Under the pieces are notes generated by a model. It was not told the origin of the DNA, made no database searches, and saw only the letters and a list, made by a program, of their open reading frames with translations. DNA of 30,973 bases. Origin: a virus. Below, in pieces: positions 22,460 to 30,908 of the stretch. The translations under genes and the position numbers were made by a program. How positions within the stretch are numbered: position 1 is the stretch's first letter; each line of letters begins with the position of its first letter. The DNA is taken from positions 1 through 30,973 of the IMG/VR virus record IMGVR_UViG_3300033144_004625. One strand, given 5' to 3'.

Positions 22460-22590
22460 ATGTAGTTATTTAAATATTGGTTTACTAGTGTAAAAATAGA
22501 AAAACAGATTATAATATCAAAGCATTATTACCTATAATGTATCATTTTTTTTGGTAATATAGCATTAAAACTATTTACGTTATTCAATTA
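22460..22590 (-). other. Non-coding gap between portal and scaffold-like genes
   Basis: 131 bases, almost only A and T. It contains a 7-base inverted repeat (TATTACC at 22526-22532 with GGTAATA at 22553-22559) around an oligo-T run, and the AAACCAAT leader at 22476-22483. No exact TAnnTTTG box or gene is seen. Confidence 0.4.
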
Positions 22591-29028: not shown

Positions 29029-29047
29029 AATATGTAATTATTTCTAA

Positions 29048-29079
29048 CAAAGATATATAATTACTGGAATATATCCTAA
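29048..29079 (-). promoter_or_regulatory. Candidate Bacteroidota-type promoter of the minus-strand block
   Basis: On the minus strand TATCTTTG (29055-29048) matches TAnnTTTG exactly. TTAG (29079-29076), close to the -33 TTTG, is 20 bases upstream. The ATG at 29028 follows 19 bases after the -7 box, giving a very short leader. Confidence 0.55.
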
Positions 29080-29323
29080 CTAAAAAATATAATTTTTCGT
29101 GTACATATCTAAAGGAACAATTAAAACCCCACCCTCCAACCCCAAAGGTCTGCAGAAAAAATGAGTTTTCCTAACATAATTAAAAAATTTTTTTTGGGGA
29201 AAGCGATAATCACCTTATGTCCACTGTGTTAGGGGACTCCATAAAAGAATCCCCCACTAAAAATAAAGAATTGGGGTACCCCCCACGTTAAACAATGAAT
29301 ATTAATAAATAAAACCATAAAAA
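29080..29323. other. Divergent intergenic control region
   Basis: No gene is present. In order it holds a C-rich run (29127-29143) whose minus strand has GGGG, GG, GGG and GGGG tracts with 1-2-base spacers; a long A-tract/T-tract (29182-29195) likely to bend; an inverted repeat GGGGA/TCCCC (29232-29236 with 29250-29254); and a perfect palindrome GGGGTACCCC (29273-29282). The G+C islands stand out against AT-rich surroundings. Such a layout suits an operator or replication control region; no exact plus-strand promoter is seen. Confidence 0.5.
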
Positions 29324-29731
29324 ATGGAAGAATTAACTTTGGGTGCCATCGTGCACATAGTATTAGAATCAGGAAACTTTACAGCGAATGGTAATTATTC
29401 AGCTTATGATGAATCAGGCACTCGCTATCACATTCACAAAAGAATGTGTGATGCATTGAATTGGAAAGAAGATAAAGATGTGGTGTTTCCTCTCTACAGC
29501 ATCGCTTCAGTTAAAGAGATTGGTACAAGAGATGATGCAGGGGAATTGACTGATGTTAAGGTCAACAGGCTTGCTGTTACTAAAATCTATGCTACTCGCC
29601 AAGAGTACATCGACTCTCAAATTGACAAACAGACTACGAAGATAGAGATTGCTCAAGGTGTTAGTGAGAAAGCAACATCTGCAGGATTGAACGAAGACGC
29701 TGTTAAGGCTCTGTTGTTAGCATCAATCTAA
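29324..29731 (+). CDS. Plus-strand protein of unknown function, codon use suggests high expression
   Basis: A 135-residue protein, the only gene between two structured non-coding regions. Residues 1-75 are beta-rich (LTLGAIVHIVLESGNF, then ANGNYSAYDESGTRYHIHKR) and could be a small beta-barrel such as an OB fold; this is a guess. The C-terminus is helical (IEIAQGVSEKATSAGLNEDA) and ends ALLLASI. Unlike its neighbours it uses CGC for Arg and many C-ending codons (ATC, TAC, AAC, GAC), and it is richer in G+C. That fits selection for strong expression or a different origin. The leader AATAAATAAAACCATAAAAA is typical of Bacteroidota starts, and a long stem-loop follows its stop. Confidence 0.85.
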   Translation: MEELTLGAIVHIVLESGNFTANGNYSAYDESGTRYHIHKRMCDALNWKEDKDVVFPLYSIASVKEIGTRDDAGELTDVKVNRLAVTKIYATRQEYIDSQIDKQTTKIEIAQGVSEKATSAGLNEDAVKALLLASI

Positions 29732-29738
29732 CCTTATC

Positions 29739-29779
29739 ATTATAAGAACGTTGCGTGATAATCGTAGCGTTCTTATAAT
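29739..29779 (+). terminator. Long stem-loop after the plus-strand gene
   Basis: ATTATAAGAACG (29739-29750) pairs with CGTTCTTATAAT (29768-29779), and five further pairs (two G-U) extend it to about 17 with a 7-base loop, TGATAAT. It starts 8 bases after the stop codon. The following AATGTTATTATATAT is only weakly U-rich, so it may protect the 3' end as well as terminate. Confidence 0.75.
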
Positions 29780-29864
29780 AATGTTATTATATATATGGGT
29801 GGGATATTTATTTCTCAGGGTGGGTAATGAATTAACATCAAATATGCAAAATATCCAGTGAAAT

Positions 29865-30110
29865 AGGTAGTATAGTATTAGTTTTAGTTCACTTTTAAAC
29901 TTCCACCGAGGAGGAAAGTAACTTTTTGGGGTTAAACTGATACTATTCTATCTTATTTTCTATGAATATGTTGTGTAAGTGTGTTAATGGCAGTGTAACA
30001 CGTACCAGGTTATAATGGTACTATTCTATCGTCCTGAAAAGCATAAGTGGATAGATATAGCATAAAATAGTATAAACTAACTAAGAGCTGTTGCAAGTCA
30101 GCCTGTAAAA
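29865..30110 (+). ncRNA. Candidate structured non-coding RNA or cis-acting DNA element
   Basis: There is no frame of note from 29732 to 30145. Bases 29865-29884 pair with 29934-29953 at 19 of 20 positions (two G-U), enclosing a smaller hairpin (ACTTCC with GGAAAGT). Further stems are GTGTTA/TAACAC (29981-29986 with 29996-30001), GTACC/GGTAC (30002-30006 with 30017-30021), CTATTCTATC with GATAGATATAG (30021-30030 with 30050-30060, one bulge) and GCTG/CAGC (30087-30090 with 30099-30102). TACTATTCTATC occurs twice (29941-29952, 30019-30030), each copy in a stem. The function could be a small RNA, a long structured leader or a replication signal. Confidence 0.5.
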
Positions 30111-30145
30111 TAGTGAGCATACATAATATTTAAAACAATGATGAT

Positions 30146-30298
30146 ATGGCTAAGCTAATGAAACATATTAAGAATGAACATGGGTTTGAAGAAACTATTT
30201 GTGTTCTTGAAGGTAGTGAAGAGTACTTGACTAGCAAATTAGATATTATGTCTGATAGAGATGTTGTTAAATTTTATATTGTTGATGATGATTCCTAA
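30146..30298 (+). CDS. 50-residue protein, first of an early-type operon
   Basis: The frame begins MAKLMKHIKNEHGFEETICV and ends KFYIVDDDS. It is AT-rich and uses the same codons as its downstream neighbours. Its last codons overlap the next start (ATGATGATTCCTAA). A basic N-terminus and an acidic end are the only visible traits. It is probably a small early protein; the function is unknown. Confidence 0.6.
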   Translation: MAKLMKHIKNEHGFEETICVLEGSEEYLTSKLDIMSDRDVVKFYIVDDDS

Positions 30299-30506
30299 AG
30301 ATATTACAATAGATAGTGATACTAATGAACATGTTGCTTCATTTGATTATTATAATGGACTGGCTTATGCCAAAGAACATGATTTGAAACAAACCTCATC
30401 ATTTGATGATGTATTTAAGGGTACACATTTTATAGTTTGTTGTGGTGATGTTATGATTAGCATTAAGCCAAACACCTTCATGAATATTAAAAGAAGAATG
30501 ATATGA
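30288..30506 (+). CDS. Small early-type protein, function unknown
   Basis: 72 residues from the ATG at 30288 (30285 is also possible). A longer frame to 30261 would overlap the upstream gene far more and adds a hydrophobic stretch, so I chose the inner start. The protein begins MIPKDITIDSDTNEHVASFD and has VFKGTHFIVCCGDVMISIKP near the end. It overlaps its upstream neighbour by 11 bases and its downstream one by 4. No domain is recognised. Confidence 0.65.
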   Translation: MIPKDITIDSDTNEHVASFDYYNGLAYAKEHDLKQTSSFDDVFKGTHFIVCCGDVMISIKPNTFMNIKRRMI

Positions 30507-30706
30507 TAGAGTTTCATCTTGAATTTCAAGAAAAAACAGCAGTAAAGGTTAGAAAAGTATATCTTCCTTATTTACCTGTTAAAGGTGAAGCTAACTTTGA
30601 TATTAGAGAAGATGGAGAACCACATAATTTCTCTGTTGTAGATGTAGATACTTCTATTGCAGATGGTAAATTTTCACATGGTGTAATATATTTAAAAAAT
30701 GCTTAA
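30503..30706 (+). CDS. Small beta-rich early-type protein, function unknown
   Basis: A 67-residue protein whose ATG overlaps the previous TGA (ATGA), so translation is coupled. It is beta-rich (MIEFHLEFQEKTAVKVRKVY, then FDIREDGEPHNFSVVDVD), perhaps one small beta-sheet domain. No motif is recognised. Confidence 0.7.
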   Translation: MIEFHLEFQEKTAVKVRKVYLPYLPVKGEANFDIREDGEPHNFSVVDVDTSIADGKFSHGVIYLKNA

Positions 30707-30908
30707 TGATATGAATGAATGTGCTGTTAAAGTGATGGATTATTTAAAGGACAATGATATTCCTTATGATGAGAATGAAGTAACAGTTAGCTATAAAGCT
30801 TATTATCATTGGGAGTGGTTTAGTAAGCTTGGTATTAATGATGAACAACACGCTGATAAGGTAATAAAACAAATCAAACAAAATATAAAAGGTGATGCAA
30901 GAGGATAG
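30699..30908 (+). CDS. Small acidic early-type protein, function unknown
   Basis: A 69-residue protein overlapping the previous gene by 8 bases. A helical start (MLNDMNECAVKVMDYLKDND) is followed by an aromatic segment (VSYKAYYHWEWFSKLG) and a basic end. No family is recognised. Confidence 0.7.
   Translation: MLNDMNECAVKVMDYLKDNDIPYDENEVTVSYKAYYHWEWFSKLGINDEQHADKVIKQIKQNIKGDARG

Follow-up and report, generated by a model that had tools for sequence, protein, structure and literature searches.

Why would a phage keep a stretch of about 400 bases free of genes? This question is raised by the IMG/VR record IMGVR_UViG_3300033144_004625, whose full 30,973 nt are referred to as the window in the following. 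The ORF list of the window contains no ORF of at least 50 aa at 29732-30145, and the empty stretch described in the original prediction is indeed present. The reasoning attached to it, that small phages rarely keep unused DNA, starts from a wrong premise, because the 31-kb record is a fragment of a crAss-like phage genome and its near-full relatives measure ~103-119 kb (about 110 kb), with a coding share of 92-94% in the three analysed in full. The minus-strand genes of the window encode a crAss-like muzzle protein, major head protein, portal and large terminase, and the portal has its best relatives among crAss-like phages (23-28% identity). A search with the terminase gene revealed related loci on contigs of up to 119 kb; these relatives are uncultured aquatic kin of the gut virus crAssphage. 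On the DNA level, no close relative of the window was found in the phage collection, the weak matches being due to chance.

Comparison with the related loci suggests that the stretch serves as promoter and 5' leader for a rightward transcription unit, located where the two genome halves diverge, and we assign this reading a probability of about 55%. The unit is probably early, judging by the position of the small ORFs downstream, and might be transcribed by the virion RNA polymerase. Being conserved, present once per genome and lacking a host-type promoter, such a control region offers one defined site at which to ask how crAss-like phages begin transcription with the RNA polymerase they inject and where their replication starts.

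Conserved layout of the non-coding region

Related loci were collected by two scans. The terminase-based scan gave 80 related loci, and a scan for the G-block pattern gave 80 more stretches, most of them with the same leader and a handful being GC-rich chance matches. After removal of duplicates, 102 leaders including that of the window were aligned. The non-coding layout is kept in about 100 other loci, normally once per genome, in the order terminator hairpin, TATATATA with two GGGTGGG blocks, hairpin C, block D, linker, ATATAGCAT and first gene. The corresponding features of the window are as follows.

29739-29779, plus strand: terminator-like hairpin that follows the upstream gene (ORF 29324-29731), recognised from sequence and relatives
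29790-29796, plus strand: TATATAT box just 5' of the first G block, also present in relatives without G blocks
29797-29824, plus strand: element B, GGGTGGG-N14-GGGTGGG, a potential four-tract G-quadruplex
29860-29960, plus strand: element C, a hairpin, recognised from shuffle z, covariation and the nested helices of relatives
29865-29884/29934-29953, plus strand: outer helix of element C
29903-29904/29930-29931 (CC/GG) and 29906-29913/29922-29929 (CCGAGGAG/CUUUUUGG), plus strand: inner helices of element C
29973-30024, plus strand: element D, conserved block around GCAGTGTAAC, recognised from the alignment and a profile built without the window
30025-30054, plus strand: element E, linker from D to F
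30055-30063, plus strand: element F1, the ATATAGCAT box
30146-30908, plus strand: overlapping small ORFs that follow the leader (50, 81, 67 and 69 aa), from the ORF list

The gene upstream of the leader belongs to differing families among the relatives, and the same non-coding layout follows 3' of it. At the place of the terminator-like hairpin the relatives have a hairpin of high GC content, which is often followed by a T-rich tail. With the protein of ORF 29324-29731 as bait, no relative was found among viral contigs. This ORF is a single gene between two leaders, a position at which different protein families occur across the phages.

Element B occurs at one site per genome where it is present, and at two sites in tandem in one genome. 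The strict pair of G blocks was found once in five of twelve near-complete relatives, twice in tandem in one and without an exact match in six; for one of the single-match genomes (G009), the location of the match in the leader is assumed. Among 51 terminase-selected leaders, which were picked regardless of G blocks, 34 carry both blocks, and the other 17 depart from the pattern, several of them keeping partial G blocks or TATATATA. A pattern scan of bacterial genomes returned six matches; the one examined is not a phage leader, and the other five come from unrelated taxa and were assumed to be chance matches.

Structure and conservation of the hairpin

The starting point of this study was a predicted stem of 20 positions, 19 of them paired. 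This stem could be confirmed: the arms of the outer helix enclose one U-U mismatch and two G-U pairs, and the nested hairpin, in which CCGAGGAG pairs with CUUUUUGG, is part of the predicted fold as well. With -30.5 kcal/mol, the plus strand of 29860-29960 is far more stable than its shuffled counterparts (mean -17.2 kcal/mol, z -4.53, 0 of 500 as good), compared to a z of -1.96 for folding of the minus strand. The hairpins proposed to follow at 29970-30035 exhibit stability at shuffle level (z -0.27), and the comparison with shuffled sequences thus speaks for the stem region and not for the later hairpins. The second half of the originally proposed span is kept in sequence but not demonstrably folded, and the whole 271-nt stretch is modestly stabler than chance (z -2.15). 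A 12-mer, TACTATTCTATC, is present twice as described (29941-29952 and 30019-30030), but only part of the second copy lies in a stem: in the minimum-energy fold the UAC of GUACCA/UGGUAC is paired and most of the remaining bases are single-stranded. Since the second copy is not consistent among the relatives, an alternative-pairing switch formed by the two 12-mers was rejected.

Conserved pairing with changed bases, proposed beforehand as support for the element, was found in hairpin C. At the same position, 13 relatives carry a long hairpin with the arms ATTATTCTCAG...CTGAGAAT, most of them with the inner motif AAACTTTCTACGAGGAG. The arms of the window are unlike those of the relatives in sequence and pair equally well. 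In the arm alignment of the window and the 13 relatives, 10 of 22 pairs are changed on both sides and 20 further pair types occur, counts that are biased somewhat towards the structure, since the window was aligned manually on the CTGA it shares with the relatives and a spacer of constant length took the place of the loop. These counts were reached by none of 500 shuffles, and slid controls gave 2-4 pairs changed on both sides. Sliding of the pairing partners lowers the pairing from 79% to 30-42%, and the window arms form 19 of 22 pairs with each other compared to 12-15 with the arms of relatives. Hairpin C thus shows compensatory changes beyond both shuffled and slid controls, as expected for a structured RNA.

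The nested helix of the relatives keeps invariant G-U pairs; their inner helices have counterparts in the window, and on the opposite strand these G-U pairs would be lost. When a covariance model was built from eleven relatives with the window left out, it matched 29870-29956 at E 2.1 (rank 6), which is not significant; for the homology of the hairpin between the window and its relatives we therefore rely on its position, the inner motif they have in common and the number of covarying pairs. The plus strand folds better than the minus strand in the 54 C regions of at least 60 nt (mean z -2.94 vs -2.21, p 0.0017), and among imperfect pairs G-T is more frequent than A-C (119 vs 73, p 0.017), both p-values being optimistic because the sequences are related.

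In many relatives hairpin C is absent or very short, and B and D are then close together with nothing folding between them. The hairpin can thus not be essential to the shared function; it is an evolutionarily conserved, optional part of a larger single-copy control region. In L009, L025, L046, L053, L047 and L061, the leader motif AAACTTTTTACGAGGGAG is reversed, or two inverted copies of it form one long hairpin. A reversed inner motif in a few relatives is easier to explain for a DNA element.

A search of the window against Rfam 15 gave no family at the gathering cut-off, and for 20 related loci the matches were confined to tmRNA and tRNA. tmRNA genes were predicted in several relatives (L026, L029, L051, L018, L019, L131, L147 and L103). 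Permissive searching produced chance likenesses only, such as let-7 (RF00027), which scored 25.9 bits at 29857-29961 (E 0.022) compared to a gathering value of 53.5 and reflects a chance likeness of GGUAGUAU together with the long stem. Open-literature searches of partial coverage yielded no published description of the leader. With the covariation, the shuffles and the lack of an Rfam match, the proposal of an undescribed structured element is supported; the element is larger than the proposed coordinates, and the hairpin is only an optional part of it.

The AT-rich box and the G blocks

Most relatives show a short stem-loop between the two G blocks, the sequence of which varies while the pairing stays. 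The mean best Watson-Crick stem amounts to 3.58 compared to 2.86 in shuffles (z 8). Pairing is best described as strictly Watson-Crick and has no strand preference. The spacer measures 10-26 nt among the relatives, and the stem in the window is weak with three pairs. Four G tracts of at least three bases are found at 29797-29824 and might form a G-quadruplex. Quadruplex-duplex hybrids, combining a G-quadruplex and a stem-loop, are known from aptamer work (PMC8466185). The arrangement GGGTGGG-stem-loop-GGGTGGG resembles these hybrids in its sequence pattern, with 17 of 51 terminase-selected leaders having less than two full blocks. With stems that change in sequence but keep their pairing, it would be an unusual natural quadruplex-hairpin element.

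Conserved block, linker and first genes

Element D is conserved in sequence (GUGU...ACC). A profile of D alone that was built without the window found the window at E 0.075, and a D-to-F profile, likewise built without it, found 29973-30063 at E 0.0015 and gave one significant site in each of the three full genomes. Single sequences suggest a hairpin or a pseudoknot in D, and a conserved pseudoknot has weak support from column pairing and windowed statistics (z 3-4 in the best registers and near zero in others). Since these pairing statistics are weak, no structure is claimed for D; compensatory changes as in hairpin C were not found in this block.

The first ORF begins a median of 23 nt after F1 in the relatives and 91 nt after it in the window, and an ORF starts at most 150 nt from F1 in 80 of 95 loci. 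The first cistron differs among the phages. No family match was found for the small ORFs at 30146-30908, and the genes downstream of the leader have no known function. In the leader of T4 gene 32, the gene of a single-stranded-DNA-binding protein, a pseudoknot is followed by an unstructured stretch and the start codon. Both leaders share a structured 5' part, a linker and a start codon; they differ in the pseudoknot, which is weakly supported in D here, and in the first cistron, which varies here.

A proposed promoter and 5' leader of a rightward unit

The element is located at the gene strand switch in the three full genomes. On the opposite side, the late operon carries a promoter box of the host type.

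29048-29055, minus strand: Bacteroidota-type -7 box TATCTTTG of the divergent late operon, recognised from sequence and relatives

Of the late leaders on the opposite side, 97% contain the motif TAnnTTTG (17% in shuffles), compared to 9% of the right-hand leaders (15% in shuffles), and the right-hand leader of the window does not carry the Bacteroidota housekeeping promoter (TTG at -33, TAnnTTTG at -7). The divergent late leader (window 29030-29320, both strands) is itself strongly conserved, with TACCTTTGG followed by GGGTGGGTGGG-like G runs; it further contains A/T runs, ATAATATAGCAT and the Bacteroidota-type promoter before the first minus-strand gene.

According to literature, the early genes of phi14:2 are read by the virion RNA polymerase (PMC8375218), and the late genes of crAss001 and phi14:2 are probably read by the host RNA polymerase (PMC10136315). 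With no host box here and this published division between early and late polymerases, a leader in a unit of the phage polymerase would be the simplest synthesis. The cultured phages phi14:2 and crAss001 belong to the same virus order and likewise have divergent early and late halves, with late genes thought to be read by the host polymerase (PMC8375218, PMC10136315). They differ, together with phi17:2 and Lbo-JY46, by the absence of element B. In Thermus phage P23-45, the start sites of the two-barrel virion RNA polymerase are AT-rich and phage-specific (PMC10770324). Compared by description, the AT-rich site is alike (TATATATA here), whereas a single site with G blocks is present here. A promoter motif for the virion RNA polymerase of crAss-like phages was not found in the literature covered, the coverage being partial.

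The data show that the region is conserved and single-copy, that the hairpin covaries and folds preferentially on the plus strand, and that a promoter box of the host type is missing; transcription itself, its start site, the polymerase reading the unit and a binding partner of the hairpin are inferred. Transcription of the upstream gene would end at the hairpin 29739-29779, and a polymerase that does not use the host's Bacteroidota promoter code would start at or near TATATATGGGTGGG. The nascent RNA would then carry the optional hairpin C, followed by block D and the linker up to ATATAGCAT before the first small gene. The hairpin might act in cis, as a stabiliser or as a protein-binding site on the messenger. 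This reading is favoured by the covariation, the plus-strand bias, the G-U pairs, the terminator-like hairpin on the 5' side, the ORF near F1 and the rarity of the host box. Against it stand the optional nature of the hairpin, the inner motif reversed in a few relatives, the strand-neutral stem of B and the E of 2.1 obtained with the model of the relatives.

A more specific version is tentative, although worth considering: TATATATA(A/T)GGGTGGG-[stem-loop]-GGGTGGG might be the clade's sole early promoter for the virion polymerase, recognised as a quadruplex-duplex/hairpin structure of the DNA. The hairpin of the original prediction would then stabilise the transcript as an optional stem close to its 5' end.

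Alternative explanations

The main alternative is a DNA replication origin, in which G-rich blocks containing a hairpin would lie at the skew minimum together with palindromes and AT-rich stretches for unwinding, perhaps primed by a leader transcript. We regard it as rather unlikely; it is compatible with the leader reading, and neither excludes the other. An origin would agree with a unit that occurs once per genome, where the genes diverge, and close to the cumulative GC-skew minimum; in the three full genomes, 18 to about 620 nt separate this minimum from element B. The strict Watson-Crick stem of B and motifs in both orientations would also suit a DNA element, and the skew inversion of Crassvirales has been interpreted as two replichores (PMC10136315). 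In G006, however, the one genome that separates the two effects, the skew of the 93-113 kb part tracks gene strand and not distance from the element. The skew may thus only reflect transcription, and it was rejected as proof of an origin. Moreover, no array of repeated initiator sites was seen, and the plus-strand folding bias suggests RNA.

A packaging (pac) site, or another protein-binding DNA site, at 2.7 kb from the large terminase gene appears improbable. It would account for the single copy close to the terminase, and crAss002 is predicted to use headful packaging that starts at a pac site (PMC8042965), but RNA-type pairing with G-U on one strand would not be expected, nor would the location of the unit directly before a gene run and in fixed orientation to it. 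Full-length contigs break at varied places relative to the site, which says little if packaging is headful. Just as doubtful is a stand-alone small RNA or riboswitch instead of a leader. Its attraction lies in the long structured non-coding stretch without an Rfam match, yet many relatives have block F immediately next to their first ORF, a conserved folded core for a ligand pocket is missing with the pairing of D being weak, and the phages vary in their first cistron. That an AT-rich gap between genes folds by chance, as the near-chance stability of the later hairpins and the whole stretch would suggest, is hardly credible in view of a stem equalled by 0 of 500 shuffles, the covariation and homologous leaders in about 100 loci.

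Further conserved elements

The exact 11-mer ATATAGCATTA occurs 1-3 times per genome, typically as F1 and as a second site.

22557-22567, plus strand: element F2, second ATATAGCATTA site, upstream of a minus-strand structural gene

In most relatives F2 is found 7.5-9.4 kb from F1, just upstream of the Bacteroidota-like promoter of the structural gene. As F2 adjoins this promoter, a phage regulator might bind at F. The sequence at these coordinates of the window is TAATATAGCATTA, and nearly all relatives have it upstream of the minus-strand gene that follows the portal gene, just before a promoter-like site. The same placement is seen even in the distant Leptolyngbya phage Lbo-JY46, making it a candidate regulator site.

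A search for a tRNA or a AATGCACCA element right after F1 gave no match and was probably too strict or faulty, the AATGCACCA element being visible by eye. A further conserved non-coding element occurs downstream of the leader in about 20 loci and consists of TTTAATGCACCA..CAGCTTCCCAAGGGCTG.., a possible distant closing stem and GAGTGCAGAGGGAT. No Rfam match was obtained for it in L095 or L116. It is found about 193 nt after F1 in L095, and also in L097, L111, L116, L129, L140, L152 and others.
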